Source: a virus. From it: DNA of 53,059 nucleotides. Shown here in pieces: positions 230 to 46,334 of the stretch. A program made the position numbers and the translations under genes. The stretch spans positions 1-53,059 of the IMG/VR virus record IMGVR_UViG_3300042987_002152; one strand, given 5' to 3'. The notes below the pieces were generated by a model. The model was given only the letters and a program-made list of their open reading frames with translations, was not told where the DNA came from and searched no databases. How positions within the stretch are numbered: the first letter of the stretch is position 1; each line of letters starts with the position of its first letter.

Positions 230-340
230 GCCTTCTAAACTTATAGATGCCCAATAAGAAAATTCTAAGGTATTAACCCATTGACGTTGATCAATATCAA
301 AAAAGACTACATTATTTCTGATTGGGTGAGAAAAGCTCAT
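215..340 (-). CDS. 41-residue protein translationally coupled to the gp55-like sigma gene
   Basis: The ATG overlaps the stop of the sigma-factor gene as ATGA, a usual sign of translational coupling. The reading frame begins MSFSHPIRNN and ends at a TAA inside an AT-rich inverted repeat. The product is small, rich in aromatic residues (two Trp, several Phe and Tyr), and has no signal peptide or membrane segment. I do not recognise the family. Because it is read straight after the late sigma factor, an accessory role in late transcription (in T4 gp33 partners gp55) is possible, but no sequence similarity to gp33 is visible. It could also be a short chance frame; the exact stop/start overlap favours a real gene. 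Confidence 0.5.
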   Translation of the reverse strand: MSFSHPIRNNVVFFDIDQRQWVNTLEFSYWASISLEGNYQI

Positions 341-1248
341 AGTACAGCACCTGTGGGTAGATTTACAGTATTTGATGCTTGATTTTCTGCACGTTGTTGT
401 AATTGATCTTCTACTTGACGTGTATGACTGGGACTGCTATCATTCATGATCAACAAATCATCACGTATGGATTGATTTTTCTTTTCAGTGCTGAGAATTT
501 TAAGGAAACTGGTGGCCACCACTTGTGTATAATAGCTGAAGGGGTTGCTGCTTTTGCTTTCATCAAATTGGAGGCCCACTTGACTCAATTGCATGAGAGC
601 CTGTGCACGCATCTCATCCAAATAACTGTAACCTCTCCAGTTGCCACGATGTCCATATCGTTCTACCAATTTCATCCACATGGCGCCCAGCTGGTTGGTT
701 ATTCTACCATGATCCAAGTTGAAATGTCCATTGATCAATCCTCCCTGCCAGTGACTTTTACCCACACAAATCCAGGTTTGATTTTGCCAAACATAATGTT
801 GAAAGGGTGGAAACTGACATCTGATGTGTCTGTCAGCCACAGTTTTTGCTCTAGCTTGCTTGATGGGGTTGGAATCCACAGGCACGTGTTCGAACGTCAT
901 CAATCTCACAACTATTTCCTCAAGTGGGAAATCATCCACTGTCAATGTGCTTTCAAAACTTTTATTTTGGGACTGTTTCTTTTGTTCTATTTGATGGTCC
1001 ATTAATTTTTTTTGTCTGGCTGCCTGCAGTGTGTCCATGGTCACAAGATCCAAACTAGTAGCAATAATGTCGTAATTTTTGTATTTGTCATCCACGAAAC
1101 TGCAAAAAGTCAATTTGCTTGCGTGTATGGCTGCCAATAAATCTTTGTTGGTGAGATATTTTATTTTGGGTACAAGTGTGTTCATTAAATCTTTGCACAA
1201 GTAAAATAGTTTCAATGCATTGTGTTGACCAAACATTCGGTTTGTCAA
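337..1248 (-). CDS. 55: gp55-like late-transcription sigma factor
   Basis: Likely the phage sigma factor that directs host RNA polymerase to late promoters. The C-terminal half has the gp55 signature: a helical region followed by SNPFSYYTQVVATSFLKI and a lysine-rich stretch (residues about 230-262), corresponding to the NPFAYFT segment of cyanophage gp55 proteins. At 303 residues it is much longer than T4 gp55 (185). The N-terminal 120 residues and the insert around 125-200 are not recognised. The start is probably TTG at 1248, with AGGAGA four bases upstream. A 41-residue gene overlaps its stop. TAAATA-type promoters across the window fit the presence of this factor. Confidence is good for the family and lower for the exact start. 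Confidence 0.72.
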   Translation of the reverse strand: MTNRMFGQHNALKLFYLCKDLMNTLVPKIKYLTNKDLLAAIHASKLTFCSFVDDKYKNYDIIATSLDLVTMDTLQAARQKKLMDHQIEQKKQSQNKSFESTLTVDDFPLEEIVVRLMTFEHVPVDSNPIKQARAKTVADRHIRCQFPPFQHYVWQNQTWICVGKSHWQGGLINGHFNLDHGRITNQLGAMWMKLVERYGHRGNWRGYSYLDEMRAQALMQLSQVGLQFDESKSSNPFSYYTQVVATSFLKILSTEKKNQSIRDDLLIMNDSSPSHTRQVEDQLQQRAENQASNTVNLPTGAVL

Positions 1249-1475: not shown

Positions 1476-1483
1476 TTAAATAC
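1476..1483 (+). promoter_or_regulatory. late promoter TTAAATAC
   Basis: TTAAATA, about 43 bases upstream of the 762-residue gene and in the same form as those before 5251 and 14174. AAGG followed by TTGAG lies 6-15 bases before the ATG. Confidence 0.45.
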
Positions 1484-1525: not shown

Positions 1526-3814
1526 ATGAAACTTTTTGAACTGTTTGCTACTGATATTCTCCTAGAAGCCAAAGCCAGGATTGAACACCCAGAAGATCTT
1601 ATATTCGATCAAGGATTATCTGGTGCCAAAACTGCTTTGCATATTTTGCATACCACAGCTGACCAACCTCAAAGCGTCAGCATCAAATTTGATGGAAGTG
1701 TGGCCTTGATAATGGGGTGGCGAGCAGATGAGTTTGTGCTCACAGACAAGGCAGGGTTTGGCGCCAAAGGTTATGATGGCATGACCACCAGTGGTGCCAG
1801 TATAGAAAACATGATCATGGCTCGCAAACAGAAAGACACCAGTCCACAGGCCATGGACAAGAGGAGTGCATATGCTAGGACTATTGCCAGCTTGTATCCC
1901 ATTTTGCGCGCAGCTGTGCCTCGATCCTTCAAGGGATATGCACAAGCTGACCTGTTGTGGGTGGGAGTACCCAAAATAGTTGATGGCATGTATGAGTTCA
2001 AGCCCAACAAGATAGTCTATCGTGTGGGTGTGAACACAGAACTGGGCAAACAAATAGCCAACAGCAAGGTGGGCATGGTTGTGCACAGTATATTTGCCAA
2101 CCAACAGGATGAAGAGCCAGACGCATTGCGTGACGTGGCCAGCTTGGGATGGAAAATTCCAGGAGATCTAGTTGTGGTACCACACGAAATAGAATTCAAA
2201 CAAAAATTGGTGCTAAACAAAACGGATAGTGACAAACTGCAAAAGATCATCCAGACAAAGGGCAAAAACGTTGACAAACTTTTTGACCCACTTAGCTTGA
2301 CAGATCGCAACATCAAGGCATTGCCCAATTTGATGAAAAGCTTTTTGGCCTACAAAGCAGGCAAGGGCAGCCAAGATTTCAGCAACGTTGCCCAAGAATT
2401 TGTGGATTGGCTGGCCAGTCCAGCCAGCAAAGCCAGCGCCAAAATGCAGGCCGCAGTGGGTGAATGGTTGAGCGCTAATCTTGCGGGATACAACGCCACC
2501 TGGCAAATAGTGCAGTTGTTGGTTGATTTGAAATTGGATCTCAAGAGTCAGATGGATCAACAAGTGGGCAACATAGTCGGTGCCCAGTTGGATCAGGCTC
2601 CTGGTCATGAAGGCTTTGTGAGTGTGACGCCTCAGGGTATTATCAAGTTGGTCAATCGTGCAGAATTCATGAAAAAGGACCAACCAGTCAGCGAAGCAGA
2701 ACAAGGCAAGCATGTGAGCTGGGCATTTGGCAGGATGAACCCCCCAACTCTAGGTCACCAACATTTGGTTGATACAGTGGCCAAAAATGCCAAGGGTGGT
2801 GATTATTGGATATTCCTCAGCCACAGTCAGGATCCCAAGAAAAATCCTCTGCCTCATGCAGACAAAAAACATTTTGCACAAATGATCATGCCCAAGCATG
2901 CTCAACATTTTGATGTACCAGAAGATATCCGAACCTTTCTACAAGCAGCTGATTGGCTTTACAAACAAGGCTATCGCAGCATGACCTTTGTGGCTGGCAG
3001 CGACAGACTACCAGAATTTGAAAAACATCTCAATACTTGGAACAGCCAAGCTATCCGTGACAAAGCACCTTTGGAAATCCATGGACAACTGCAAACAAGA
3101 CAACCTATTGAAATCAAATTTGCCAGTGCTGGTGAAAGAGATCCAGATGCAGAAGGATTGAGTGGGATTAGTGGCACCAAAGCTAGAGAGGCTGTGGCCC
3201 AAGATGATTTTGTTGGGTTTCAAGCCAGCACTGGACTCACAGGCAAGCTTGCGAAATCCATGTTTGATGCTGTAAAATCTCACATGCAGGCTGCCAAACC
3301 AGCCAAAACCAACAGAGTGAAAGAACAAATGATGGGAACCATCCCTGCACCTGAACAGGAAGATCACAGCAAGGGCACAATCGTCAAATTGAGATTGGCC
3401 AATGAGTGTGCCCAGCAATTATATGAATGGTGTCAACAGCACAATATCAATTGCATAGATCCACATGACTTTCACATGACATTGGTGTTCAGCCTCACTC
3501 CTGCACCTCAATTGAGTGATTTGCATGCAACCAGCACTCACATTCCTGCTAACATCAAAGGCTGGAAGATATTGGGCGAAAATACTCTAGTGTTGGATTT
3601 GGATTCACACATGGCTGATAGAATGCACCACAAACTGTTGGAATGCGGTGCTACTCACAGCTATCCTAGTTTTATACCTCACACAAGTGTCATGTATGGC
3701 TGGAATGAGCCCCGTGTGCCTCAACAAGTTCCAAATATGGAAATGATATTTGAGAGTGTGGAGGTCGAACCGTTAGACCCCAATTATGCAAAAACAACAC
3801 AGCCAGGCAATTGA
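1526..3814 (+). CDS. Three-domain protein: ligase-like KxDG nucleotidyltransferase, NMNAT-like transferase and 2H phosphoesterase
   Basis: A 762-residue fusion. Residues about 45-210 resemble the covalent nucleotidyltransferase (ATP/NAD ligase) fold: SIKFDGS gives the KxDG nucleophile at Lys54, and later strands around GYAQADLLWVG (137-147) and YEFKPNKIVYRV (157-168) fit further ligase motifs. Residues about 395-560 match the NMNAT/cytidylyltransferase family: GRMNPPTLGHQH holds an HxGH-like motif, and ISGTKAREA matches the ISxTxxR signature. Residues about 620-755 have the paired H-x-T/S motifs of 2H phosphoesterases: FHMTLVF near 650 and HTSVMYG near 718. KxDG proteins of unknown function and NMNAT-like proteins are common separately in T4-like phages. 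The arrangement suggests end-repair or NAD/ADP-ribose chemistry on RNA, which is inference. It has its own late promoter and is convergent with the next gene. Confidence 0.7.
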   Translation: MKLFELFATDILLEAKARIEHPEDLIFDQGLSGAKTALHILHTTADQPQSVSIKFDGSVALIMGWRADEFVLTDKAGFGAKGYDGMTTSGASIENMIMARKQKDTSPQAMDKRSAYARTIASLYPILRAAVPRSFKGYAQADLLWVGVPKIVDGMYEFKPNKIVYRVGVNTELGKQIANSKVGMVVHSIFANQQDEEPDALRDVASLGWKIPGDLVVVPHEIEFKQKLVLNKTDSDKLQKIIQTKGKNVDKLFDPLSLTDRNIKALPNLMKSFLAYKAGKGSQDFSNVAQEFVDWLASPASKASAKMQAAVGEWLSANLAGYNATWQIVQLLVDLKLDLKSQMDQQVGNIVGAQLDQAPGHEGFVSVTPQGIIKLVNRAEFMKKDQPVSEAEQGKHVSWAFGRMNPPTLGHQHLVDTVAKNAKGGDYWIFLSHSQDPKKNPLPHADKKHFAQMIMPKHAQHFDVPEDIRTFLQAADWLYKQGYRSMTFVAGSDRLPEFEKHLNTWNSQAIRDKAPLEIHGQLQTRQPIEIKFASAGERDPDAEGLSGISGTKAREAVAQDDFVGFQASTGLTGKLAKSMFDAVKSHMQAAKPAKTNRVKEQMMGTIPAPEQEDHSKGTIVKLRLANECAQQLYEWCQQHNINCIDPHDFHMTLVFSLTPAPQLSDLHATSTHIPANIKGWKILGENTLVLDLDSHMADRMHHKLLECGATHSYPSFIPHTSVMYGWNEPRVPQQVPNMEMIFESVEVEPLDPNYAKTTQPGN

Positions 3815-3829: not shown

Positions 3830-4624
3830 TCAGCTTATACCAGTCAATCTGGTGATTCTTTCAGCCTCTTCTCGATTTTTGCGGATATCTCCAGGCTTTC
3901 TAGGACTGCCGTCAGGATTGTTCTCTAGAGGCAAATCATGTACAAGTTTCTTGAATGCAGCAACTAGTTTGGCATTCTTGTGAATTGCGTCCTGCAAAGT
4001 TTCCACACTCAACAACGCATTCTTGTTGTATTTGGCACCAAACATTTTTTTGGCAATCTGATCAGGATCTTTGCTGATCAAACTTTCATCATCTCTGCGG
4101 ATCAGTCCTTTTTGCCAACTGTATTTCATACCCAGGGCTTTGGCCACACTGCTCATCAGCAGGTTTCTGTCTGCACCAGTGTATTTGCTGTTGTCTCCAG
4201 CACTGAACATACCAAACTTCATCCATGTGGGATCATCATCAAACATCCAATCCACTTGAACAAATCCATTCGCAGCATCTCCCCGGATGGGTGTTAGGAA
4301 ATGAACACTAATACCACTTTTTTTAATGTATTGTTTGGGATCCTGGTTGTTGTTGTGTGCCCATTTTGTCAAAATGTCCACCAGCTGCTGCTTGCTGATC
4401 TTGGTGGCATCCACAGCGATATCCAAATCACCCGAGCTGGCTTTTTTGCCCACGCTGCCCAAGGTCATATCCAGGGTAGGCAGTCCCGTTATTTTGTGTA
4501 ACCAAACAAGAGTTGGATGGATGTCAGCCAGGTTTATTCTTTGCGTTAGAGGAGCACCATCAGGATTCTTGAATACTTGTCCTCCTTCCAGGAGATCAAT
4601 TGTGGGTAATTCTTGTAATTTCAT
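3830..4624 (-). CDS. Nucleotidyltransferase-fold protein (pol-beta type)
   Basis: The segment TLGSVGKKASSGDLDIAVD (residues about 55-73) is the classic nucleotidyltransferase helix-turn motif: GS, then a D-x-D metal-binding pair. A third acidic residue may be in FVQVDWMFDDD further on. The family transfers nucleotides to RNA, protein or antibiotic acceptors; the substrate here is unknown. The start is ATG at 4624 (MKLQELPTIDLLEGG). The frame could begin 18 bases earlier only at a TTG. The N-terminus resembles that of the neighbouring 762-residue protein (MKLFELFATDILLEA), which may be a shared peptide signal. A CATAAATA late box lies 8 bases before the ATG, leaving room for almost no leader. 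The gene is 264 residues long and converges tail-to-tail with its neighbour, 15 bases apart. Confidence 0.65.
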   Translation of the reverse strand: MKLQELPTIDLLEGGQVFKNPDGAPLTQRINLADIHPTLVWLHKITGLPTLDMTLGSVGKKASSGDLDIAVDATKISKQQLVDILTKWAHNNNQDPKQYIKKSGISVHFLTPIRGDAANGFVQVDWMFDDDPTWMKFGMFSAGDNSKYTGADRNLLMSSVAKALGMKYSWQKGLIRRDDESLISKDPDQIAKKMFGAKYNKNALLSVETLQDAIHKNAKLVAAFKKLVHDLPLENNPDGSPRKPGDIRKNREEAERITRLTGIS

Positions 4625-22900: not shown

Positions 22901-23316
22901 ACAAAATGATGACTGATCAAATCATTTGGCATCCTGTACGTTATAAGTTGCTGTTTGGCAATCTAGCTGATCCACAACTACAAGCAATTTTCAAAATTGT
23001 TAGAATATCAGGCAGCACAATAACTGACAGGGAATTGAAAGCCAGAGTAATACAAGCAGTGGATACTTTTTTTGACATTGCCAATTGGGACTTTGGACAA
23101 AGTTTTTATTTTACAGAATTGGCTGCATATGTGCATCAACAAATGGCCAACCTGCTCAGCAGTGTTGTGATTGTACCCACCAGCAGCAATAGCCAATTTG
23201 GGGACCTTTTTGAAATCAAATGTGAACCTGACCAACTTTTCATCAGTGCTGCCAGAGTTACTGATGTACAAGTTGTGCAAAATTTATACCCTTCTGAATT
23301 GAGAATCAATACATGA
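19957..23316 (+). CDS. 6: Baseplate wedge protein gp6-like
   Basis: A 1119-residue protein. The N-terminus has the gp6/GpJ pattern: YDTIRQSLIEYIRTNYPEDF, then FVAIIEMLAYLGANLAFRVD and LARFLSYNPRR. Dimers of gp6 form the ring that holds the wedges together. T4 gp6 is 660 residues, so this form is about 70 percent longer, with extra beta-rich sequence in residues about 450-850. It is translated from an ATG overlapping the gp25 stop, and its own stop overlaps the next start (ATGA). Confidence 0.85.
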   Translation: MSQTVRQNNLFVAQDWTVIYQAMSQVNFNSYDYDTIRQSLIEYIRTNYPEDFNDWISSSEFVAIIEMLAYLGANLAFRVDLNTRENFLSTATRRESLLRLARFLSYNPRRCLAAQGLLKLTQIKTTQTIYDSNGVNLQNLTVNWNDTGNPDWLEQFILILNAAFQPSNPFGQPVKSGTVGSVATERYDFNNTDTNNLSYKFNSTVNGTSMDMEFVNSDFVAGTSTGSTLSSNGYYMEKIPNIFNSWSLLYRRDGNGNASVNTGFFTVFKQGTLDYSDYNLGTPVPNRVIDVGALNINQNDVWVQTVSDAGLPLLDWTKVPAIVNSNLVYNNVERLTRDIYQVVTRDSNGSDSISIRFGDGNFGNVPVGRVRVYYRTSNNLTYVIQPQDMNAITLSLSYQSELDTLQTLTMQFSLQYPVANSLARESDDSIRLRAPAVYYTQNRMVNGEDYNVFPLQNSQVLKLKSVNRVYSGQSRFLDITDPTSKYSRTQVFSDDGILYKQIVNTSQQIPLINNLNTNQIIESIIQPLLHGGTDIQNVNIALRDFYLSYYTWLPGGGIFWRPSGSSLPNASQGLFYAQSNNTPTGEGTAVYLPNLERGLTTGSLVQFTEGGWASVVNQGSSELGIYATIISKPIGEYLLGSSTQRNVALQIIPPLRVSLSTSEKDDISNALQSKRNFGLRYNIQTLTWQVIDSQDLAINAPFNLANTGNTSKSNVDASWLVQFLYQANSGWQITMRGLHYMFESVREVQFYFLNNHPVVDNVTLTSARDNIRILKYNTGSNNQQLTTDQYWALHNISTSIDGQIDPRIVRVVFWDSNNDNIIDNPLVFEDLVPPNSLVFWKSSVAEGSQIWQPIPGVDYIVTFLADLSTTVPVPSVGNIAYVTNPGVFLECVSINPLSWKDVSTNYKALVGKSHINYCWQHYANSQKRIDPAIMNVIDAYVLTNNYNTALRNWISKSRPTDTQPQPPTPEDLRTLFQEFDSYKMMTDQIIWHPVRYKLLFGNLADPQLQAIFKIVRISGSTITDRELKARVIQAVDTFFDIANWDFGQSFYFTELAAYVHQQMANLLSSVVIVPTSSNSQFGDLFEIKCEPDQLFISAARVTDVQVVQNLYPSELRINT

Positions 23317-26300
23317 CACAAAAACCACGTCGCATAAGTGAATTTTTACCTGAAGTGTTGCAAACTGACCTGTTACAGAAGTTTTTTGCAGCCACTGGGG
23401 ACCAACTTTTTCAACCAAGTAATGTGGAATATCTAAGTGCCTTTGTGGGGGAAAAACCTCCCTATTATAAACCCACAAGTGAACAGTATGTGGCTGAAAT
23501 CAACAAAAATAGGCGAGATTATCAACTGAGCCCCACAGCTGTGAGCAGAGATATTATCAGCAACGAAGTCACCCACACATTGTTTTATGACGATCTCATC
23601 AACAAATTGCGATTTCAAGGTGGGCTTGTTGATGATCATAATAGATTGTTTGAAAACGAATACTACAGTTGGGGAGCGCCTCTCAATTGGGACAAATTTG
23701 TCAATTATTCCAACTATGTGTGGTTACCACAAGGACCCACAACCATTGAATTGCTGAGTCCTACCAATGCACAAGTGGACGTAATATCAAATATATCCTA
23801 TGCTTATGTGGGCAATTACAGTTATCCTGATCCCCAAGACCCTGAACTCTTGGTAATCAAAAGTGCCACAGTCAACAATCCGTTGGTTTTTGTAAATGGT
23901 ATGAAAATCAAATTTCTAGTGGATGCAGACGTGCAATCAAGATCCATAAGTTGGATTGTGGAAGGGGTAGGCACTAGCATAAGATTGGTCAGTGACAACA
24001 TACTCACATATTTGGCCTGGGAAAATCCTGTTGATTATGATACAACACCTTGGGATAGTAATAGTTTGCAAGACTCTCCCACCTATGTGGTCATGGGAAG
24101 AGGCAGTGCTAATGCTAATCCTTGGAGCCTACAAAATCGGTGGTTTCACAAAAGAGTGCTGGAACTAACCCAAACTGCATTGCCTGACAGTGTTTCCAGC
24201 AGTGCACAACGGCCTATTTTGGAATTTGATTATGATCTCAAGCTTTTTAATTTTGGCACTAGACACAGAGGATTTATAACCCTTTTGGATACTCAAAGCC
24301 AATTTTTAGATCAAATAAATGGCCAATGGGTAACTACCATTGACAATTCCAATGGTAACAGAACGTATTTGCAAATTGATCAATTGACTTTGGATGACGA
24401 TCAGATCATTTTGTTTACAAATCTTAGAAATCCAGAACGAAACAACAAACTCTATCGTGTGACCAATGTAAGGAACAGCAGTAGTATATCAGGAGCACAA
24501 ACAAAATTAGGCCAAGTTGTATTGGAGTTGTTGCCCAATCAGATAGACCCACTGGGTGATCCTCAACCAGGTGACGCAGTGACCATCATGCAAGGAGGCA
24601 CGTGGCAAAACACCTGTTGGTGGTATAATCCAGTCACAAGATCTTGGCAGCAGGCACAAAACAGAACATTACCCACAAATGTGGATCCCACTAGTAGTGC
24701 ATATAAATCAGCACTCAACAGCAGCCCATTGTTTGATCTATTCAATACAAGACAAGAATACCTAGCCAATCCTGCTGTGTATCCAGCAAACAATTTTGCA
24801 GGCTGCACTATTTTTGAATATGCTCGCAGCAGTCAAGGTGTTATAGATCCTGTGTTGGGATTTATTCCTGTTGTGGAAAATGCAGGAGCTAGGAACTTTG
24901 TATTCAACAATACACTGTGCAGCCAACAGTGGATATACAAAAACAACAATGCACTTGAGACTGTTCCTGGATTGAAATTTTATCAACACCAGTCTGATCA
25001 CAATGTTTCATATGGTAACAATTGGTTTGTCAGCAGTCAACCCAGTCGTCAGTATGTGGTTAATGAATTTGTAAGTAAACTGGACCAGCAAACATTTGTG
25101 ATTGATCAAGCACCAGCATTGCAAGAGAGTGCTCATGATCCACAACTTTTGACAAATGCTGTGGGAGGCGCAATGCCTATCACAGTCAGCGTGGGCACAA
25201 AAACTCTTGTACTCAATCAAGACTACACAGTTCAAGGCAATGCTGTATTTTTGTTTGAGCCTCTCCTAGCTGATCAATTTGTTAGGATTCGTAGTTTTGC
25301 TGTACCAAACAACCAAGCCACAAATGGATACTTTGAAATACCCAGCAATTTGGCGGCCAACCCCAACAATCAAGCCATACTCAATATTAGTTTTGGCAAT
25401 CTATTACCACATTTGCAAACTATCATAGATAATCAACAAAATTTGTCTGTTTTTGCAGATGTGTCTGTCACAACAAATTATGATAATCTAGCACAAGATC
25501 AAAGTTTGGGCACAGTGATTATACAAAGTCGTGCTCCCATGCTCAAGCTCATGGGCATGAATGCCATTGAGCAAACAACAGTGTTTGATACTACCAGCAG
25601 TGTTTTGGATCCCATCACAGCCATTCAGTGGGCACAGGCAGAATATTTGCGGTTTTACAACAAATTTGTAAACACGTTGATGTACCTTTATAACAATCAA
25701 GGCAACCTAAAAGATCAAACAGCAGGTGGTTGGCTAGATCAAGCATTGGCCATAATAAATGTGGGCAAAACACGCTCCAGCTCTTGGGCCAACAGTGGCT
25801 TTGATATCCAAGCTGGCAGTTATTGCTCACAAAAGAGTCAGACTCCCACTTGGATTCCAGCCAGTGCAACTAGATTGGGATTAACCCCTGCTTGGGAACC
25901 CCTGGTATTTTTTGATACTAGCCAGCCCAACATGCCTTTGAGCATGAGAACACACAATGGTGCACTAGTAGTTCTCAAAGATTACAACAATGAAAATTTG
26001 GGTACCATACTCAACAACCAACAACAAACTAATATACCCGATGCTTTAAGTAATCCAGTAGCACAAGCATGGCTGCTGTTTGAAAAGTTGTTGTATGATA
26101 ATTTGCCAGCATCTTACAAAAACAAGGAAAGACAACTGCCTGTGGATCCGCGCACTATCTTTAGTGGGAAATACCGGCAAACCAATTACAGCCGCACAGA
26201 TCAATTAAAAATACAAAGTGCACAATGGCAATCTTGGTTGACGTTAAATCAAGTGGAGGCGTTCAAAAATACTACTTTTGATGTGACTGATCCCTTTACT

Positions 26301-29300
26301 TGGAACTATAGCAGTTGTGTGGACAAGCAGCAGCAACCAGTACCAGGACATTGGCGCGGGATTTATTTTTGGTTTTTTGATACTGATCAACCCCATCTGG
26401 CACCCTGGGAAATGTTGGGATTCAGTCAACAGCCCATGTGGTGGACACAAGAATATGGTGCAGCACCTTATACAAGTGGCAACCTTCGTATGTGGAGAGA
26501 TCTTGAACAAGGAATCATACTACACGGACCCAGAGCTGGTGTACACACTGTGTGGGCCAGACCAGGGTTGTTGGATAATATTCCTGTAGATACTAGCGGT
26601 AATTTGTTGCCTCCATTTTTGGCTGGAGTAGTCACCAGTCTGCCCACTACAGTTCTGGCAAGTGCGGATTGGAAATTTGGAGATCGTAGCCCATTGGAGA
26701 ATGTTTGGTTAACCCAAGTAACTTGTGATACTTTATGGGCGCAATGGACATATCTTGCCAAACCAGCACAATTCATGGAATATAATTGGGATGGAACAAG
26801 ACAGGAACAAATCCTTGCACAACAACCAGGATCGCAGTGGATCTACACTGACATATTGGACAGAAAAAGCAGCAGTGAATTTTTGGTTCATAGAGAAAAT
26901 CCACAAGATGTTGTCAGTTTACCCAACCCCTTGGACTTGGATTATTATGGTAGTTGTGGCATCCAGCATTGGATTAGTGAATATCTCATAAATGACAGCA
27001 AAGATGTTACTGTGTATTTTGGCAATATAATAAGAGGTATGAATGTAAATCTAGCCTATCGTTTGGGCGGGTTTACTGACAGCCAAAGTACTCGCATTTT
27101 TGTGGAGAGTTTTGGTATCAACAACAATAATAGCCTGTTGATTCCGCAAGAAGATGTGAGTACTGAATTGTTGCGCAGTGCCAGCACAGGTGAATATGTT
27201 TACACTGGTGTAATAGTGGAATTTCAAGGTATTGGTGTGGGTTGGAGAGTGATTGGTTATGACCAACTAAATCCATTTTTCAAAATAGTAGCAAGTGACA
27301 CCAAAGGTCCCAAAAACACTGTTGTGATTGATAATCAGCGAGTTTTTGAATACAGTAGGGGATTGGCACATACACAATTGGTAAGGTATGGTACAGTATT
27401 TGCCACACGACAGGAAGTTTATGATTTCCTCATAAGCTTGGGTAGAGCACAACAGATGGATGGTTGGTTGTTTGATCAATACGACGATGTAGCGGGTAGA
27501 CCTCGTAATTGGAGTTTGAGTGCTAGAGAATTTTTGTTTTGGAGTCAAGGACCTTGGGCAAGTGGCACATACATAGCTCTCAGTCCATTGGCTACATTAG
27601 CCAAATTTGAAAAAGATTATGGCGTAATACAAAATGTGGGCGGATTGGTTAATGGCGCATATAGTATACAAGATCGTAGCGGTGTTGCTATTCAACTACA
27701 AGACGTTGATTTTTTGCGTATTGACAATAAGATCAGTGTCCGGCCACTCAACAGTCAAGGTATTTTTGGATTAAGGTTGTATACTACAACCTTAGAACAT
27801 GCTTTGATAGTGGCTAACAGAACAATTTTCAATGACCTTATGTATGATCCTGTGTTGAACCAAAGACAATATCGTGTGAAATTTTATGGATATCGCACGT
27901 TGGATTGGAATGGAAGAATGAATGCTCCTGGGTATTTGGTCACACAAAGTTTACAGCAGATCAACAACACTGTTAATGTGATCAACAGAATCATACCCAA
28001 TTTTGAAAAAAGTGTAGAAGATTTGCGTAAACTTTTCGAAATAGATTTGGCTACCCCCTATCAGTTGGCAGACAATAATCAAACACTTACTAGCACAATC
28101 ACACAAAGCCTTCCCATCAATTTAAGTGTCATGGCCAAAAATGTAGTAGGTTATACACCTAGATCCTATCTCACACAGTTGTTGACTGATCAAAATATTG
28201 CTTTTCAGTTTTATCAGGGCATGATCAAACAAAAGGGTACTAGACCCAGCATAGACAAATTGTTACGCAATAATCAAATATTAGCCAGTGATCAAAACTT
28301 CGAATATTATGAAGAATGGGCATTTAGGTCAGCGGTTTATGGAAACAATTTGGACAATAGTAGTATAAGCATACTTCTAGACAATACATTAGTCAACAGC
28401 AATCCTCAATTGTTTATGATATCTGGACCTGGCACAAGCGATCTACCCAATGATGATGTATATACTATCTTGACAAATGGCAACAATGTTGTGCAAAAGA
28501 GCAACAAATTGGGTAATTTCAAATTACGTAATTATTATGGTTCAAACAGCAATGACCTACCCACTGCTGGATATGTGTTGTTGGACGAGACAACCTATAC
28601 TGTTGTGTCAGATCAAGACTTGCAGAACTTGTATTCAGAAACTACAAGTAAATGGATCAACAATCAAATAAGCAGGAATATTCAAGCAGGTGACACTGTA
28701 TGGCAGTTGATCAACAGTCAAACCACATGGAATGTTTATAAAATTTGTCAACCCACATGGAGTATTAGTGCAACCACTCCCAGTGATATTGATATATCTA
28801 TCACACAAGTGTCCACAACCAGTGCTCACAATCTTGTGTCTGGGGATCGAGTAATTTTGTATGGTGTTATCAATGCAGGCACAGTAATTGACAATACTTT
28901 TGTAGTAAATGTGATTGATCAACTGACCTTTGAAATCCAATTGACTACATCCAACATTGGTAGTGGAGGCACAGCCCTTGTATATCAAAGTATAAGATTT
29001 GCCAACACACAACAACGGGATGATGCATTGATTGCTGGAGGTTGGCAAACCAAGGACCTTGCTTATGTGGATGGTACCAGCCTGGATCCTTGGAAAGTAT
29101 ATTCATACACGGGTACAAATTGGCGTGTGCTGCGAGAAGAAAACTACAAAGTGGATCCCGAATATGTGGAAGCCAGCTTTTTGTATGACATTGTCACTGG
29201 TGTTACACAAACGCAATGTGTGTTGCTGGATCCAGTCAAAAATAAATTGCCAGGAATTTTTGATCAACAAATTGGTTTTCGCACACCTTATGATCCTGCT

Positions 29301-32300
29301 CAATACACACATGATCCCAGTCAAACAGTGGGTACCAATGCCCTGGATGCTTGGGGTAACGATCAAGTGGGTATGGTTTGGTGGGATCTGAGTAAATTAC
29401 GATTTGTGGATTATGAAATCCATACTGCAAGTTATAGACGACAAAATTGGGGCAAGGTGGCACCAGGAACCAGTGTTGATATTTACGAATGGACCAGAAG
29501 CACTGTGCCTCCGCAAGATTGGCAAGATCTAGTCAAAAGTGGCAAGGATTTGAGTGCCATTGGTACCACACAAATGCCCAGTGGTCAGGCCAAAGATCCT
29601 CAAGGTGCTTATGTGTTGGCGCAGCAGTTGAATAGTTTGAATCAGTTGCAAGATGTATTTTATTTTTGGGTAAAGAATACAACAACTGTTCCTGATGTCA
29701 GTTGGCGTACATTAAGCACCAGTGTGCTGGCAGACATAATACAAAATCCACAAAACACAGGCCAAAGTTGGTGGAGCCCAGCCAGTGCCGATCATGCATT
29801 GTTGGGAAATGTGGGCAATCTGTTGATCAACAATCAGAGTGTTTGGCAATTGAATTGGTTGGCCAATCAACAAACTCCTGTGGTGCACAAAGAGTACCAG
29901 CTTGTTCGACCCATGGACGCTCTCAGCAGTCCCACAAGTCAACTGTGGAATCATTTGAGATACAGTTTGGTAGAATATAATCAGTTCAATGATAGTGTGC
30001 CTTATTTGCGATTGCCTTTGAGTCAAAGATATGGGATTCAAAATCACCCACCACAAACCATTTTTGCAAACACCTTGAGCGCAAGACAGGCATTTGTAGA
30101 ACAAGTGAACACATTGCTAGCCAACAGCTCACAACCCAGTGTGAGTGACCCCAGCAGAGTGGGTTGGCAGCCGTTTTTTGATCTTCAAGAGCCCATACCA
30201 CCACAAAAGATTGTGCTGGCCAGTTGTGTGCGTGGCACTACAGAAAATCTTGATGCGTGGTATACCAATAGCAATGAGGGTATAGGTGCCCAATTAATAG
30301 GCAAGAATACACAGTTGTTGATTGTGGATCAACTGTATGTTCAGGTAGGTGATAGATTGTTGATCAAAAATCAAAAAGAGCCACAGCAGAACGGAATTTA
30401 TACAGTAATTCATCCAGGAACTCTAGTGTATGATGGGGTCTGGCCTACTGGAAATGGCAGAGTGAGTTTCACGGTGGGATCAACAACTTATTTGCCCAGT
30501 CAAGGTCAATACATTTTGAAGCAGAACACATTATATGTTATCACTGATATTGGCTCAGCTACCACAGAATGGCAGAGACAGGAAATTGCTGGCAATGTGC
30601 TCAACGACCCCAAACTCACCAATTGGGTTTTGGAACGAGCAAGTGATTTTGATCATTCCAGCAAACAGATCATAAACACTGAGGTATCAGTGTTATCTGG
30701 CAGTCAGACACACATATACTCTTGCCAACCATCAGGTGTATATGCACAAGATATTCAATTGATTGATGGTGGGCAAGGTTACAACGTGAATGACCTTATT
30801 ACCATTACCCAGGTAACCAGTTATACGCCTGTAAAAATCCTTGTTACTAGTGTTTCCAGCACTGCTATAACGGGGTTTGAAATACTGGACAGAGGAAATA
30901 TTCGAACTGTGAGTGCTGGGCGAATATGTAATACTACCTGGTATCCAGATGCATACAATAGTGGTATAAATGCTAGATTTAGTGTTCTCTGGAGTGGAAA
31001 CAAAGGTTTTGCAGTTGGTACATCAGTCATTAGTTTTCTACCTAAACCAGCGCTTACAACCTGGGATCAACAGGTGGAAAATTTAGCACAATTGCTGGAA
31101 CTCAGAAACAAAGTAGTTCCTGGAACTAGGGTCTTGGTTGCATATACCAATCTAGAAGGCGTGATCAGTGCAGGCAATGATACACAAAACAGATGGACCA
31201 TTTGGTTATGGCCCAATGTGTCAGCGCAAGATTTTGTTTTGATAAGAGTAGAAAGTTATGTGGGTAGTTTGGTGTGGGGATTGCAAGATTGGTATGCTGC
31301 TGGGTATAGTTCACAAACCATTCCTGATTTGGTTTTTGAAACTCTGCAAGATAGAGATCAATACAAGAACTTCTCCAAATTAGATATTGTTAGAGTCAAC
31401 AATACAGGATCTGGTCTCTGGAGCTTGTATTTGTATGTGGCAGTAGACTTCACACCTTGGCTGCTTGTGGGTCAACAAGATGGTACTGTGGTGCTGGAAG
31501 ACACATTGTATGATTACAGCAAATATGGCATGGGATTTGATGGCAGCGGATTCAACCAAGACTATCAAGGTTGGGAATACGACAGTCGTCAAGAATTAGA
31601 TCATATCATACAAGGATTGTGGCCCACAGCGGAAGGCACACAAGGATTATTGTTGATAGACAATCAGACAAATGAAGCCAACACATTGTGGTTTACCATG
31701 CTCAATAGAGTATTTAATGAACAAACTTTTGTGGATTGGGCATTCAAAACCAGTCACATTAATTTACAGGGATTTAGTACTCAGCTGACAGCTAGCCCGT
31801 TTTTCCAGCCAAGTACGTTGGACAACATACTGCAATACGTAAATGAAGTCAAACCCTATCATGTGAAAATTCGGCAATTGGTGGAATGGAAAAAAGCACA
31901 AGACAATTATGATAGTTCAAGCACAGACTTTGACAAACCACCCTATGTTGATCCTGTACAAGGCACAAGAATCTTGAATGTGCAGAGTGCCATTGATCAA
32001 GTTATTTTGCAAAACAATGCAGCTTACAAGAATTGGTACAGCAATTATGTGACCAATCCGCAAGTGGTGAGAACAATCAAAACTCGGTTAGTGTTTGATA
32101 GAGTAAGTTGTCAAGCTGCGGAATGGTACAATCAAGAAATTGATCCAGTAGAGCTGTATGCCTTTTTAAATCAGCCCACTGATCAATTCATCACTAGTTT
32201 GCGTGAATGGCTTGCAGTATTGTATGATACACAAATTATTGTGGGTTACAAGGTACAAGTGAAAATATTCAGTGAGATTATCATCCGTAGAAACAATCAA

Positions 32301-35300
32301 ACGAGTGTTGATCCATTGGAAAATTGGGATTTTATAGCTGCAGGGTTGGATTTCACTCAAATTTATGGATTGGATCCAGTACAAGCATTATCTAGAACTT
32401 TGCAAGAAGCACAAAGTATCTACACAGCACAAGATCTTTTTGTGTTGCTGAATAACAGTGCAAATTATTCTACTGGCTATCAAGCAAAAGTCAGGATAGA
32501 CGAGTGGATAACCACCAACACATATGTCAAACAAAATAACACAAGTATTTTGTTGGACCAATGGTTGTTGATAAGCTATGAGGCAGATAATGGAGCTGTG
32601 GATCGAGTGATTGCCTATTACAATCCTCAGGGAACACAATTACCTACCAACAGTCCATTGTTGATAAGTGGCTGTCAAGGTCAACTGTTGGGGGTTGATG
32701 GCCAAGGTTTCAACACCCAAGATACTTGGGACAAAACTGATTGGGACAATGTGCGAGGTTGGGACTATACTGAACAAAGTTTGGATCTTGTGGATCAAAA
32801 CATATCAGACGGGCTTAGTCCCAGATATTGGATTTTTGTAGGGGATGGTACAACTACTACATTTAGTCTGCCCGTGGCACCACAAAATCCCAACCAACTA
32901 ACCGTGTGGGTGAATGGCATAATCATTGCACAGTCAGGCAATTGGCATGTGCCCAATTGGGTCAGTCAAATTTATGTGCAGAATGGTGGTATCAATTATA
33001 GTATGAGTGATATTGTAAGCATTCAGGGAGGTACCTATACTAGGCCAGCACTGTTTGAGGTAACTGGTGTCTCAGTGTTGGGCACTATCACCAATTTGCA
33101 GATTGTGGATCCTGGAGAATATACAGTTGTGCCGCAAAATGGTGCTGTTCAGGTGAACGGAGGCACAGGTGTAAATGCTGCTGTGAGTGTGTTATGGGGA
33201 GGCACCAGCCTGGTGTTTGCCAGCGCTCCCAGCATCCCCTTACGTCCACGACCCAATGTATGGGTAGTAGAAAAAGGCAGCACATTCAATCCACAAGTAG
33301 AAAGCATGTTAAATATGACTTTTGATGGTGCTGGTTTGAACAGCCCACATCTGCAACCGGGACATCCAGAAGAACTGAATAAATCCTGGAACAGAGACAG
33401 TTTGATCATGGACGTTTACAATCAAGCTCAACCTGGTTATGGTAATTTGATTACCAAAGTTTACACATCAGATGGTTTGATCGACCAATTTGACATAGGA
33501 CAACCCATTGTCAGCAACAATCAATTGTTTGTTTATGTGAATGGTCAGCCACAAATTTATGGTGTATCAAATGATTATGTGATTGCCTATGATACTATGC
33601 GAGTAGTATTTTTAGTGCCTCCTCCAGCAGGAAGATTGAGTATTGTGAGTGTGGGGTTTGGTGGTGCAAGTCAAGGATTGGGCTATTGGAGTATTACCAA
33701 TGCTGGTACCAACTACAAAATTGGTGATAAAATCCAGTTACTGGGGGGCACACCTTATGACCCTTCAGTTACAGCAACCATGATTGTTAGTGCACTTAAG
33801 GCAGTGGGCACACAAATTATACAAGGCGGTCAAGATTATCAAATTGGAGATCTGCTGGAACTCAAATATGGCACCAGTAATGGAATTATGATTGTGCAAG
33901 TGAATGCTGTCACCAATAGTTTGGCAGTCAAAGGTATCATCAGTGGTGTGACTGTGATCAATGCAGGGTTTTATTACAGCGTCCCAGCCAGCAATTTTTG
34001 GTACACATCAGGCACAGGCACTGGGGCTAATATCAATCCCCTTTGGGGAGTTGCTGACATATATGCTGATCCCACTGTGGGATTTTTGGGCATTTATCAG
34101 AGCATTCCTGCTCAAGCCACCCAAGCAAGTGTTACTCCACCAGGTGGCACAGGATTTACATTACAATGGGGGCCCAGTAACATAAGGCAGCAAATTACCA
34201 AAACCTATAATGGCAGCAATGCCAGCTTGAAATTTAATTTGCCTATTGTCAATGCACAATTCTTGTTATTGATCAATGGTGCAGCTAGTGTGGGTTATAC
34301 TTTGGATCCCACTGATCCTACAAATGTGCTTGTTAGTGTTCCATTGGTTGTGGGAGACACTCTTGCGGGTATAGTGTTCAATAGCACACTGTACAGTTTT
34401 ATCAACACACAGACTATTGTTGTACCCAATCCTGCTGTGTTGAATTATACAATTACGTTGCCGCCGTTCTTGAGCGTGATGCAAAGTCAAAACGCTCTAG
34501 TATTTATCAATGGATACAAGCTCCGGCCGCCATATTTTTGGCAAGGCACTGGTGATGGAACAACCACAATTTTTGATGTGGGAGTAGCCACAGGTGCTAG
34601 TGTTTTGAATGCATGGGTCAATATCACTAGTATTACTAGTACTGCCATCATTGCAGGACCAGGCGCAAATCAAGTCACATTTGCCTCTGCACCGCCCCCA
34701 GGCAGCAAATTATTTGTTCAAGTGCAGTTGAATAATGAGTTTGTGATTCAATCTACTAATTTGACTTTGATTAACCCTCCCTCTTCAGGTGATATTATAA
34801 CCGTTCAAACATTCAGTGAAGACAGTATCACCAGTTGGCGTAGCGACCGATTCCCAGGACATATGCCTGCTGTGTATACATTGAGCACGCTGGCCAGCAG
34901 TTATGGTAGTGTGCAAGTGTTTGTGAATGGGTTGTTGGTTGACCAAAATTGGGATTACACAGTGCTGTTTCAAAACAATCAAACCTTAATTCAGTTTGCT
35001 GACAATGTCACACACCTGCCCGCAGACACTGTGGAAATATATTATCCTACCCAGCCTCCAGCAGTGCCCAGTGTGGCATTTAGAATGTTCACAAACATTT
35101 ATTCAGATACTCAATATCTGAGGCTGAGTGACCAGCACACAACCAGATTGGCTGAGAATTTCTTTCACACCAATACCACAATGTGGGTGGAAGATGGATC
35201 AGTATTGCCGGATGCAACCAATAGTAACCCAGGTGTCATCTGGATTGGAAGTGAACGTATTTTGTATGCAAATAAAGTGGCTGATCCCAGTGTGCAATTG

Positions 35301-35813
35301 CCTCAGCGAACTAGATTGGAGCAAATCACTCGAGGATCCATAGCTACAAGTGGGGGAATTCCTACAAGATTTTTGAGTGAATTTCACAATGGTGATAATC
35401 AAAGCATATACTTTGCCACCCAACTACCGGTAGTCAATTTATTTGTGTTTGTGGATGGTATTCCACAAACTTTGAATTCCAATTACCAAATTGTACAGGA
35501 CCCTCCAGGTGTTGTGTCAGGAACATACATTAAATTTTCTAACGTCAGAAATGTGGATGGTGAAATTTTGTATGCAGAGGATGGTACAAGCATGCCACCC
35601 CCAGTGGGTAATAAAAACATTGTATTTGTAAGTAATTACAACAATTTCCTGCCTGCGAATTTGGTTTATGCCCAGGGCAGTGTTGTGAGAGATGGAAGTG
35701 CCAGGCAAAATATACCGGCAGGGTATATTTGGACTCCTGGAACCAGCCTGCAATATAGTGCAGAACCACAAACTCCTTTCTTGGTTCAACAACCTGGCAC
35801 ACGAATAGTTTAG
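23313..35813 (+). CDS. Giant 4166-residue baseplate protein in the gp7 position
   Basis: One uninterrupted frame of 12.5 kb, nearly a quarter of the window. The start overlaps the gp6 stop. The N-terminus (ISEFLPEVLQTDLLQKFFAA, then NVEYLSAFVGEKPPYYKP) looks like a conserved wedge-attachment domain, and synteny gp25-gp6-X places it where T4 has gp7 (1032 residues). The chain is rich in Asn, Gln, Ser and Trp with no membrane segment or signal peptide. Repeated beta modules occur: around residues 2476-2566 and 3160-3560 (GGINYSMSDIV, GTNYKIGD, GQDYQIGD) and, in the last 1000 residues, at least six modules with VFVNG/VYVNG/VFVDG. It could fuse the roles of several wedge and fibre-attachment proteins (gp7, gp8, gp10). 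Function is inferred from position; the reading frame itself is beyond doubt. Confidence 0.7.
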   Translation: MTQKPRRISEFLPEVLQTDLLQKFFAATGDQLFQPSNVEYLSAFVGEKPPYYKPTSEQYVAEINKNRRDYQLSPTAVSRDIISNEVTHTLFYDDLINKLRFQGGLVDDHNRLFENEYYSWGAPLNWDKFVNYSNYVWLPQGPTTIELLSPTNAQVDVISNISYAYVGNYSYPDPQDPELLVIKSATVNNPLVFVNGMKIKFLVDADVQSRSISWIVEGVGTSIRLVSDNILTYLAWENPVDYDTTPWDSNSLQDSPTYVVMGRGSANANPWSLQNRWFHKRVLELTQTALPDSVSSSAQRPILEFDYDLKLFNFGTRHRGFITLLDTQSQFLDQINGQWVTTIDNSNGNRTYLQIDQLTLDDDQIILFTNLRNPERNNKLYRVTNVRNSSSISGAQTKLGQVVLELLPNQIDPLGDPQPGDAVTIMQGGTWQNTCWWYNPVTRSWQQAQNRTLPTNVDPTSSAYKSALNSSPLFDLFNTRQEYLANPAVYPANNFAGCTIFEYARSSQGVIDPVLGFIPVVENAGARNFVFNNTLCSQQWIYKNNNALETVPGLKFYQHQSDHNVSYGNNWFVSSQPSRQYVVNEFVSKLDQQTFVIDQAPALQESAHDPQLLTNAVGGAMPITVSVGTKTLVLNQDYTVQGNAVFLFEPLLADQFVRIRSFAVPNNQATNGYFEIPSNLAANPNNQAILNISFGNLLPHLQTIIDNQQNLSVFADVSVTTNYDNLAQDQSLGTVIIQSRAPMLKLMGMNAIEQTTVFDTTSSVLDPITAIQWAQAEYLRFYNKFVNTLMYLYNNQGNLKDQTAGGWLDQALAIINVGKTRSSSWANSGFDIQAGSYCSQKSQTPTWIPASATRLGLTPAWEPLVFFDTSQPNMPLSMRTHNGALVVLKDYNNENLGTILNNQQQTNIPDALSNPVAQAWLLFEKLLYDNLPASYKNKERQLPVDPRTIFSGKYRQTNYSRTDQLKIQSAQWQSWLTLNQVEAFKNTTFDVTDPFTWNYSSCVDKQQQPVPGHWRGIYFWFFDTDQPHLAPWEMLGFSQQPMWWTQEYGAAPYTSGNLRMWRDLEQGIILHGPRAGVHTVWARPGLLDNIPVDTSGNLLPPFLAGVVTSLPTTVLASADWKFGDRSPLENVWLTQVTCDTLWAQWTYLAKPAQFMEYNWDGTRQEQILAQQPGSQWIYTDILDRKSSSEFLVHRENPQDVVSLPNPLDLDYYGSCGIQHWISEYLINDSKDVTVYFGNIIRGMNVNLAYRLGGFTDSQSTRIFVESFGINNNNSLLIPQEDVSTELLRSASTGEYVYTGVIVEFQGIGVGWRVIGYDQLNPFFKIVASDTKGPKNTVVIDNQRVFEYSRGLAHTQLVRYGTVFATRQEVYDFLISLGRAQQMDGWLFDQYDDVAGRPRNWSLSAREFLFWSQGPWASGTYIALSPLATLAKFEKDYGVIQNVGGLVNGAYSIQDRSGVAIQLQDVDFLRIDNKISVRPLNSQGIFGLRLYTTTLEHALIVANRTIFNDLMYDPVLNQRQYRVKFYGYRTLDWNGRMNAPGYLVTQSLQQINNTVNVINRIIPNFEKSVEDLRKLFEIDLATPYQLADNNQTLTSTITQSLPINLSVMAKNVVGYTPRSYLTQLLTDQNIAFQFYQGMIKQKGTRPSIDKLLRNNQILASDQNFEYYEEWAFRSAVYGNNLDNSSISILLDNTLVNSNPQLFMISGPGTSDLPNDDVYTILTNGNNVVQKSNKLGNFKLRNYYGSNSNDLPTAGYVLLDETTYTVVSDQDLQNLYSETTSKWINNQISRNIQAGDTVWQLINSQTTWNVYKICQPTWSISATTPSDIDISITQVSTTSAHNLVSGDRVILYGVINAGTVIDNTFVVNVIDQLTFEIQLTTSNIGSGGTALVYQSIRFANTQQRDDALIAGGWQTKDLAYVDGTSLDPWKVYSYTGTNWRVLREENYKVDPEYVEASFLYDIVTGVTQTQCVLLDPVKNKLPGIFDQQIGFRTPYDPAQYTHDPSQTVGTNALDAWGNDQVGMVWWDLSKLRFVDYEIHTASYRRQNWGKVAPGTSVDIYEWTRSTVPPQDWQDLVKSGKDLSAIGTTQMPSGQAKDPQGAYVLAQQLNSLNQLQDVFYFWVKNTTTVPDVSWRTLSTSVLADIIQNPQNTGQSWWSPASADHALLGNVGNLLINNQSVWQLNWLANQQTPVVHKEYQLVRPMDALSSPTSQLWNHLRYSLVEYNQFNDSVPYLRLPLSQRYGIQNHPPQTIFANTLSARQAFVEQVNTLLANSSQPSVSDPSRVGWQPFFDLQEPIPPQKIVLASCVRGTTENLDAWYTNSNEGIGAQLIGKNTQLLIVDQLYVQVGDRLLIKNQKEPQQNGIYTVIHPGTLVYDGVWPTGNGRVSFTVGSTTYLPSQGQYILKQNTLYVITDIGSATTEWQRQEIAGNVLNDPKLTNWVLERASDFDHSSKQIINTEVSVLSGSQTHIYSCQPSGVYAQDIQLIDGGQGYNVNDLITITQVTSYTPVKILVTSVSSTAITGFEILDRGNIRTVSAGRICNTTWYPDAYNSGINARFSVLWSGNKGFAVGTSVISFLPKPALTTWDQQVENLAQLLELRNKVVPGTRVLVAYTNLEGVISAGNDTQNRWTIWLWPNVSAQDFVLIRVESYVGSLVWGLQDWYAAGYSSQTIPDLVFETLQDRDQYKNFSKLDIVRVNNTGSGLWSLYLYVAVDFTPWLLVGQQDGTVVLEDTLYDYSKYGMGFDGSGFNQDYQGWEYDSRQELDHIIQGLWPTAEGTQGLLLIDNQTNEANTLWFTMLNRVFNEQTFVDWAFKTSHINLQGFSTQLTASPFFQPSTLDNILQYVNEVKPYHVKIRQLVEWKKAQDNYDSSSTDFDKPPYVDPVQGTRILNVQSAIDQVILQNNAAYKNWYSNYVTNPQVVRTIKTRLVFDRVSCQAAEWYNQEIDPVELYAFLNQPTDQFITSLREWLAVLYDTQIIVGYKVQVKIFSEIIIRRNNQTSVDPLENWDFIAAGLDFTQIYGLDPVQALSRTLQEAQSIYTAQDLFVLLNNSANYSTGYQAKVRIDEWITTNTYVKQNNTSILLDQWLLISYEADNGAVDRVIAYYNPQGTQLPTNSPLLISGCQGQLLGVDGQGFNTQDTWDKTDWDNVRGWDYTEQSLDLVDQNISDGLSPRYWIFVGDGTTTTFSLPVAPQNPNQLTVWVNGIIIAQSGNWHVPNWVSQIYVQNGGINYSMSDIVSIQGGTYTRPALFEVTGVSVLGTITNLQIVDPGEYTVVPQNGAVQVNGGTGVNAAVSVLWGGTSLVFASAPSIPLRPRPNVWVVEKGSTFNPQVESMLNMTFDGAGLNSPHLQPGHPEELNKSWNRDSLIMDVYNQAQPGYGNLITKVYTSDGLIDQFDIGQPIVSNNQLFVYVNGQPQIYGVSNDYVIAYDTMRVVFLVPPPAGRLSIVSVGFGGASQGLGYWSITNAGTNYKIGDKIQLLGGTPYDPSVTATMIVSALKAVGTQIIQGGQDYQIGDLLELKYGTSNGIMIVQVNAVTNSLAVKGIISGVTVINAGFYYSVPASNFWYTSGTGTGANINPLWGVADIYADPTVGFLGIYQSIPAQATQASVTPPGGTGFTLQWGPSNIRQQITKTYNGSNASLKFNLPIVNAQFLLLINGAASVGYTLDPTDPTNVLVSVPLVVGDTLAGIVFNSTLYSFINTQTIVVPNPAVLNYTITLPPFLSVMQSQNALVFINGYKLRPPYFWQGTGDGTTTIFDVGVATGASVLNAWVNITSITSTAIIAGPGANQVTFASAPPPGSKLFVQVQLNNEFVIQSTNLTLINPPSSGDIITVQTFSEDSITSWRSDRFPGHMPAVYTLSTLASSYGSVQVFVNGLLVDQNWDYTVLFQNNQTLIQFADNVTHLPADTVEIYYPTQPPAVPSVAFRMFTNIYSDTQYLRLSDQHTTRLAENFFHTNTTMWVEDGSVLPDATNSNPGVIWIGSERILYANKVADPSVQLPQRTRLEQITRGSIATSGGIPTRFLSEFHNGDNQSIYFATQLPVVNLFVFVDGIPQTLNSNYQIVQDPPGVVSGTYIKFSNVRNVDGEILYAEDGTSMPPPVGNKNIVFVSNYNNFLPANLVYAQGSVVRDGSARQNIPAGYIWTPGTSLQYSAEPQTPFLVQQPGTRIV

Positions 35814-46328: not shown

Positions 46329-46333
46329 TATGC
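46245..46333 (+). repeat. 89-bp repeat, inverted copy of 52858-52946
   Basis: The 89 bases match the reverse complement of 52858-52946 at 83 positions. The block has the end hairpin and finishes in ATAATAAATATGC. It therefore carries a late-promoter-like TAATAAATA at its downstream end. Confidence 0.75.
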
Positions 46334-46334
46334 T

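Follow-up and report, generated by a model that had tools for sequence, protein, structure and literature searches.

A three-domain DUF6267-NMNAT-Acb1 fusion with a capsid-targeting-like N-terminus: a candidate injected anti-CBASS precursor of T4-type phages

We analysed a stretch of 53,059 nucleotides (IMG/VR virus record IMGVR_UViG_3300042987_002152), here called the window, in which one open reading frame (ORF) joins a DUF6267 domain, a domain resembling nicotinamide mononucleotide adenylyltransferase (NMNAT) and an Acb1 domain behind an N-terminus resembling the capsid-targeting sequences of phage T4. This 762-residue fusion is real and conserved, and its third domain is specifically Acb1, the nuclease directed against the cyclic-oligonucleotide-based antiphage signalling system (CBASS), and not a repair-type 2H enzyme. 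We consider it most probable, at roughly two chances in three, that the protein is made late as a head-targeted precursor, trimmed by the prohead protease and injected together with the DNA, so that Acb1 is present from time zero. The parts of the fusion gene are as follows, with pLDDT denoting the predicted local distance difference test score of the structure model and a slash marking a predicted cut.

1526..3814, plus strand: three-domain fusion ORF (tag, DUF6267, NMNAT-like, Acb1), 762 codons in a single open frame
1526..1567, plus strand: predicted capsid-targeting propeptide, residues 1-14, MKLFELFATDILLE, with a predicted cut after E14 (L/I-x-E position, disorder, tagged relatives)
1568..2677, plus strand: domain 1, DUF6267, polynucleotide-ligase-like (Pfam, invariant motifs, predicted structure)
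1685-1696, plus strand: KxDG motif of domain 1, followed by EGxV (residues 362-365) and KxVxR (residues 374-378), as conserved motif residues
2678..2710, plus strand: linker 1, disordered, V388-S-E/A (residues 385-392, pLDDT below 50)
2711..3295, plus strand: domain 2, NMNAT/NadD/PPAT-like nucleotidyltransferase (PHROG, Foldseek, structural alignment)
3296..3358, plus strand: linker 2, disordered, V598-K-E/Q (residues 591-611, pLDDT below 50)
3371..3793, plus strand: domain 3, Acb1 anti-CBASS nuclease fold (Pfam, structural alignment, alignment with T4 57B)
3473-3481 and 3680-3688, plus strand: Acb1 catalytic pairs H650-x-T652 and H719-x-S721 (alignment with T4 57B)

An earlier note on this DNA had placed three motif sets in one frame and read them as three enzyme-like domains of a single phage protein. 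Every named motif lies where it was said to lie (KFDGS at residues 54-58, GRMNPPTLGHQH at 402-413, ISGTKAREA at 548-556, HMTLVF at 650-655 and HTSVMYG at 719-725), and Pfam divides the frame into three domains. Scans of IMG/VR revealed full-length three-domain relatives on dozens of contigs, some of them 133-329 kb long, in at least nine distinct versions sharing 47-82% identity; because of this recurrence the fusion is no assembly accident. The order DUF6267, NMNAT, Acb1 is constant across all aligned full-length fusions. The genes for domains 1 and 2 are unfused and close together in cyanophages and Melnitz phages, as seen in Synechococcus phage S-WAM1 and Methylophilales phage Melnitz. A scan of bacterial genomes for relatives confirmed none, and a search of the available papers on DUF6267 or Acb1 fusions returned nothing relevant.

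Domain 3 matches the Pfam family Acb1 (PF23474) over residues 616-756 with an E-value of 1.9e-15 and 57.3 bits compared to a cut-off of 27. Its best Foldseek match is the solved Acb1 structure 7t26 (5e-8), with LigT as a weaker match (1.4e-4), and structural alignment gives a Z-score of 15.7 for both 7t26 and 7t27, with a root mean square deviation of 2.1 A over 132 of 137 residues for the former and of 2.3 A for the latter. In Acb1 the HxT pairs H44/T46 and H113/T115 are catalytic, and Y12, W74, F107, E141 and W147 are ligand residues (PMC9117128). Both histidines of the fusion align with those of T4 Acb1, the second threonine being replaced by serine (H719-T-S721) so that this motif reads HTS compared to HIT in known Acb1, and W74, F107, E141 and W147 correspond to W680, Y713, E748 and Y754 of the window. 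The window domain has in common with known Acb1 (T4 gene 57B; FBB1 Acb1, PDB 7t26/7t27) the fold, pairs of the HxT/HxT type, aromatic base-stacking residues and the adenine-contacting glutamate; in contrast, known Acb1 is a free protein of 152 residues, whereas here it closes a fusion protein whose N-terminus resembles a head-targeting sequence. The fusion protein also matches phrog_755, named 'RNA ligase' (2.8e-20), a family name which annotated phage records use for Acb1 relatives. A profile scan based on eight Acb1 domains and the T4 one gave no usable pattern. The earlier note was thus right in assigning the C-terminus to the 2H superfamily, though not in taking it for a repair-type enzyme, since Pfam, Foldseek and alignment all point to Acb1. 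We reject the role in tRNA end repair or in processing of ADP-ribose 1'',2''-cyclic phosphate suggested there: with the 2H domain being specifically Acb1, destruction of CBASS cyclic-oligonucleotide signals is, judged from sequence and structure model, the likely chemistry of domain 3.

The N-terminus, which had been overlooked and which we judge the most informative feature, reads MKLFELFATDILLE/A, i.e. 14 residues closing with LLE/A and thereby with the prohead-protease motif L/I-x-E. T4 internal proteins carry propeptides of 10-19 residues, which gp21 cuts after L/I-x-E (PMC9026906); IPIII starts with MKTYQEFIAE/A and IPI with MKTFKEFTSTTTPVSTITE/A. [LI]xE is present at the N-terminal place in all eight non-redundant fusions. 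Residues 1-16 are the sole stretch of domain 1 with a pLDDT below 50, and the AKARIEHPED following the tag is nearly invariant, with residues 1-13 varying in length and sequence among relatives. Stand-alone NMNAT-type proteins start, for example, with MINSFKQYLVE/A or MKTFKDIIE/A, and the TFGR motif follows immediately. One fixed IPIII-like start pattern is matched by 58 of 68 stand-alone NMNAT-type proteins (85%) and by 42 of 55 stand-alone DUF6267 proteins (76%), compared to 13 of 507 ORFs (2.6%) in a background set from T4, the 329-kb relative G001 and S-SCSM1, where the matches include IPII, IPIII and gp24; a background drawn from the fusion loci themselves was dropped as contaminated by other tagged genes. 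A glutamate intrinsic to the following domain instead of a cleavage site, suggested by EAKARIEHPED and EGGNVFK looking like domain starts, is disfavoured because the spacing between [LIV]-x-E and the domain varies (IIVE/ATSTDQRIPHPED, LIE/QRVLTE/AEARIPHLED, IIVE/GVRIEH) and because the pattern recurs on unrelated domains. It may still apply to the pol-beta-type nucleotidyltransferase predicted next to the fusion, in which EGG is invariant.

Relatives of domain 2 have been found in virions. Mass spectrometry identified a cytidylyltransferase/NMNAT-like protein in the virions of S-CREM2, S-SCSM1 and S-SZBM1, and S-CBWM1 is cited as a further case (PMC10665884, PMC9602691, PMC9146016). These proteins (S-CREM2 gp154, S-SCSM1_91, S-SZBM1_140) belong to the domain-2 family, as compared by sequence for S-CREM2 and S-SCSM1, and are encoded by stand-alone genes lacking an Acb1 partner; the passages of the publications that deal with them mention no capsid-targeting sequence. 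Upon translation, S-CREM2 gp154 starts with MKNFSSFLTE/ADEK and S-SCSM1_91 with MKSFLQFLKE/AAES, both almost superimposable on the IPIII tag, and because they carry this tag genuine packaging of the virion NMNAT-like proteins becomes more likely. Two genes past the virion cytidylyltransferase of S-CREM2, the likewise virion-detected gp156 (L192:3513-4226) is a nucleotidyltransferase (NTP_transf_2, 21.4 bits).

The same motif recurs between the domains. Of the eight non-redundant fusions, all have [LIVM]xE in linker 1, where 1.3 would be expected from matched composition, and seven have strict [LI]xE there (expectation 0.8; composition-matched P about 1e-7), though the linker does not align; linker 2 contains [LIVM]xE in all eight as well. 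In the window the N-terminal, linker-1 and linker-2 sites are all situated in segments with a pLDDT below 50; the five remaining L/I-x-E matches C-terminal to the tag fall within predicted helices or strands or border on them. Where DUF6267 is fused to a nucleotidyltransferase, whichever of them comes first, the junction has I/L-x-E or V-x-E at variable distance to the domain. Taking motif and predicted disorder together, N-terminal trimming is most likely, a cut at linker 1 likely and a cut at linker 2 uncertain. The three domains look separable and joined by disordered, probably cleavable linkers, which lends no support to the one coupled repair reaction envisaged before.

Domain 1 belongs to DUF6267 (PF19782; residues 130-383, 7.9e-28, above the Pfam cut-off), a family without assigned function for which we report a predicted ligase-like fold and a frequent capsid-targeting-like start. 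Motifs I (KxDG), IV (EGxV) and V (Kx-V) of covalent nucleotidyltransferases are all present, and K54, D56, G57, E362, G363, V365, K374, V376 and R378 are invariant among 36 aligned DUF6267 sequences. The structure model (pLDDT 89.9) is closest to Naegleria RNA ligase, T4 Rnl1 and Trl1; every one of the 50 matches that the structural aligner listed is a polynucleotide ligase, the best Z-score of 7.8 (Naegleria) falling short of 8, the value under which the tool advises caution. A Z-score below 8 would be weak by itself, and it is because the motifs are invariant that we regard domain 1 as likely being a covalent nucleotidyltransferase. The window encodes a separate T4 Rnl1-type RNA ligase at 49822-51057 on the minus strand (RNA_lig_T4_1 3.5e-28, T4_Rnl1_C), which is distinct from domain 1.

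Domain 2 matches PHROG 3041 (cytidyltransferase, 3.6e-45), and two PHROG cytidyltransferase families match the fusion protein at 1.8e-37 or better. Foldseek yields a NadD match (5e-5), and Pfam CTP_transf_like reaches 20.9 bits over residues 400-518, just under its cut-off of 21. The (H/T)xGH and ISxTxxR motifs of the Rossmann nucleotidyltransferase fold are present as TLGH (408-411) and ISGTKAR (548-554), and the Z-scores of 12-13 to PPAT, NMNAT and NadD are tied, so that the fold cannot separate these enzymes. The claims of the earlier note that KxDG sits in a ligase-like fold and that an NMNAT-like domain follows find support in the structural matches; whether Lys54 sits in a nucleotidyltransferase pocket and whether the two histidine pairs face one another, on which its reading depended, was judged only indirectly, from matching folds and motif alignment rather than atomic geometry. 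In a 309-kb relative (G002; L196:3809-8517) a separate NMNAT-Nudix protein and a nicotinamide phosphoribosyltransferase, together a salvage pair for nicotinamide adenine dinucleotide (NAD), are encoded beside the fused NMNAT-like domain. A need for such a salvage set was considered and rejected, the phosphoribosyltransferase being present in only one of eight related records.

Expression and processing were addressed by the surroundings of the gene, for which three further features are given.

1477..1482, plus strand: TAAATA core resembling that of a late promoter, 49 nt ahead of the start codon (upstream enrichment of the hexamer)
337..1248, minus strand: late-transcription sigma factor (gp55-like), adjoining the fusion (phrog_12791, 1.4e-82)
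3830..4624, minus strand: predicted pol-beta-type nucleotidyltransferase, convergent neighbour, starting with MKLQELPTIDLLE/GG (GS-D-x-D motif only)

TAAATA is non-coding and upstream of genes in 7 of its 22 occurrences, compared to about 7% or less for each other hexamer of the same composition, making it the most upstream-enriched of them; it also precedes structural genes, and comparable boxes are found upstream of the fused genes at L003, L004, L013, L030, L039, L024, L025 and L028. The exact T4 late promoter TATAAATA was tried too and is not clearly enriched (4 found compared to 1.7 expected), in contrast to the TAAATA core. A gp21-type protease, Peptidase_S77 (PF03420), is encoded by four of the eight large fusion-carrying contigs. 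Next to it in the 329-kb record lies a scaffold-like gene in which [LI]xE[ASG] is denser than in any other of the 229 ORFs (2.74 per 100 residues, the mean being 0.19), and this favours a T4-type protease specificity in the fusion clade. The convergent neighbour, on which Pfam gave no match, is predicted to be a pol-beta-type nucleotidyltransferase with a tag-like N-terminus of its own: it adjoins the fusion in the inspected loci, starts with [LI]xE/GG in the listed relatives, and is fused to DUF6267 across MLVE/GG in L033.

Acb1 also occurs in other contexts with tag-like starts, two of which came from a scan with the Acb1 domain. A stand-alone Acb1 in L222 starts with MKLFEIEQD (Pfam 1.9e-19); it is the third of three consecutive small genes with tag-like starts (L222:3262-4432, plus strand; MRAKELFE, VRLRDLYE, MKLFEIE). 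At L227:632-6442 (plus strand) a protein of 1,936 residues starting with MNINEI comprises DUF6934 repeats, repeats resembling APH kinases, for which Pfam support is weak, and a single Acb1 (2.8e-22; residues 1125-1261) situated between EINE/AA (1120) and LDE/S and LVE/L (1267, 1273), with more LxE motifs at most module boundaries. APH-type kinases are among the proteins reported from cyanophage virions. We regard the L227 protein as a candidate giant injectable polyprotein and as the strongest hint of the fusion arrangement being a general device.

Several observations weigh against the proposed head-targeted precursor. The linkers of the window read V-x-E (VSE/A, VKE/Q) and not L/I-x-E, strict [LI]xE is present in linker 2 of only three of the eight fusions, and no prohead protease gene was identified within the 53-kb window fragment. 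The window N-terminus is longer and less canonical than that of IPIII, T4's own Acb1 (57B) has no L/I-x-E tag, and the statistics on tag, linker and N-terminus ignore shared ancestry. The virion mass-spectrometry evidence concerns stand-alone domain-2 relatives and no fusion carrier, rests for S-CREM2 gp154 on only three unique peptides, and comes from authors who warn of non-structural proteins as possible carry-over (PMC10665884, PMC9602691, PMC9146016). Within Acb1, Y12 is replaced by I619, and the adenine-contacting E141 has a counterpart in the window and its close relatives, whereas the other, more distant fusions have a different residue there, for which reason specificity may differ among fusions.

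Some of these points would suit a packaged protein which loses only its N-terminal tag, its joined domains acting as one injected multifunctional enzyme: the constant domain order, the V-x-E linkers of the window and the few strict sites in linker 2 all fit. We consider this a real but clearly less probable alternative, as strict [LI]xE persists in linker 1 of seven of eight fusions despite the linker not aligning, both linkers are disordered, the same domains exist as separate tagged genes, and LxE marks most module boundaries of L227. The untagged T4 Acb1, the N-terminus matching less well than that of IPIII and the restriction of virion proteomics to other phages leave room for an ordinary cytoplasmic counter-defence fusion expressed post-infection, in which the N-terminal motif is a mere helix and the linker glutamates are there by chance; this is improbable given the tag statistics, the detection of relatives in virions, the late-promoter-like element, the clustering of sites, and the protease and LxE-rich scaffold of related contigs. 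Least of all do we expect an end-repair or NAD-linked enzyme in which ligase, NMNAT and 2H phosphoesterase would process broken RNA or derivatives of ADP-ribose one after the other. Domain 1 is ligase-like and domain 2 NMNAT-like, and repair enzymes are found among the 2H enzymes, with LigT as a weaker match; domain 3, however, fits Acb1 far better than LigT or cyclic phosphodiesterases, the phage has its own Rnl1-type ligase, and the related contig G002 encodes its NAD-salvage proteins separately.

The head-targeted precursor would act as follows, where packaging, cutting, injection and all activities of the fusion protein are what we infer. In a jumbo phage of the T4 type, the gene would encode an internal head protein in precursor form, made late and drawn into the prohead by its N-terminal capsid-targeting sequence. 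A gp21-type prohead protease would trim it after E14 and probably also cut linker 1 and possibly linker 2, freeing separate enzymes inside the head, which would enter the next host along with the DNA. There Acb1 would destroy CBASS cyclic-oligonucleotide signals from the first moment, ahead of any phage gene expression; the NMNAT-like domain would move a nucleotidyl group onto a small molecule, most likely supporting NAD, and the ligase-like domain would form a lysine-nucleotide intermediate. The fusion resembles T4 IPI, IPII, IPIII and Alt in its N-terminal propeptide ending with L/I-x-E before a small residue, in predicted late expression, in the gp21-type protease of related phages and in likely co-injection. 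It differs from them as a three-enzyme precursor with site motifs between its domains, aimed at CBASS via Acb1, whereas each of the T4 internal proteins is one small protein directed at type IV restriction (PMC12373910) and Alt is a single enzyme. Tad1 of phiKZ, an injected sponge against CBASS and Thoeris (review PMC13282480), likewise is an injected protein acting on CBASS signals, but it binds instead of cutting them, belongs to another phage lineage and is not fused.

Known so far are Acb1, the capsid-targeting sequences of T4, the virion NMNAT and injected Tad1. New are Acb1 behind such a tag-like sequence and in such a fusion, and the putative tag on the NMNAT and DUF6267 families; a protease-cut effector polyprotein would be a further new piece and is a possibility, a literature search of titles and abstracts for a head-protease-cut polyprotein of enzymes having returned nothing relevant. 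More generally, the chances seem to us evenly balanced that T4-type aquatic phages build injectable polyproteins, i.e. several counter-defence and host-takeover enzymes on one chain with one tag, cut by the prohead protease at L/I-x-E linkers to deliver equal numbers of each with the DNA; the DUF6267-NMNAT-Acb1 protein of the window, the DUF6267-nucleotidyltransferase fusions of the L033/L037 type and the L227 protein would be examples.

Some further observations concern the 329-kb relative and the rest of the window. In G001 (L096:4768-14554) a cluster of proteins starting with MKxxDL or MRIYHL has GNAT, deaminase and other enzyme-like domains; one of them has a C-terminal module that also occurs in the Melnitz NMNAT protein, and the cluster may comprise further injected proteins. 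The window encodes a ThyX-type thymidylate synthase (41519-42466, minus strand; Thy1 1.7e-52) and an ORF of 4,166 codons in the tail/baseplate region (23313-35813, plus strand). The two ORFs at 46152-46721 (plus strand) and 51300-52976 (minus strand) have in common the near-identical stretch TRLYQYLYH.LSIHWL.SQW.S.RNNKY on opposite strands, possibly a duplicated or mobile element.

CBASS acts during infection, and a pre-made Acb1 arriving with the genome could win a race which newly synthesised Acb1 might lose. If our model is true, Acb1 acts at time zero and not following phage gene expression, and the phage has a route to load several enzymes at a fixed ratio. Tagging would account for the repeated finding of NMNAT-like proteins in cyanophage virion proteomes, and the pattern of tag and sites provides a simple sequence test for injected proteins among the many genes labelled 'hypothetical' or 'cytidyltransferase' in T4-like phages from marine and fresh waters.

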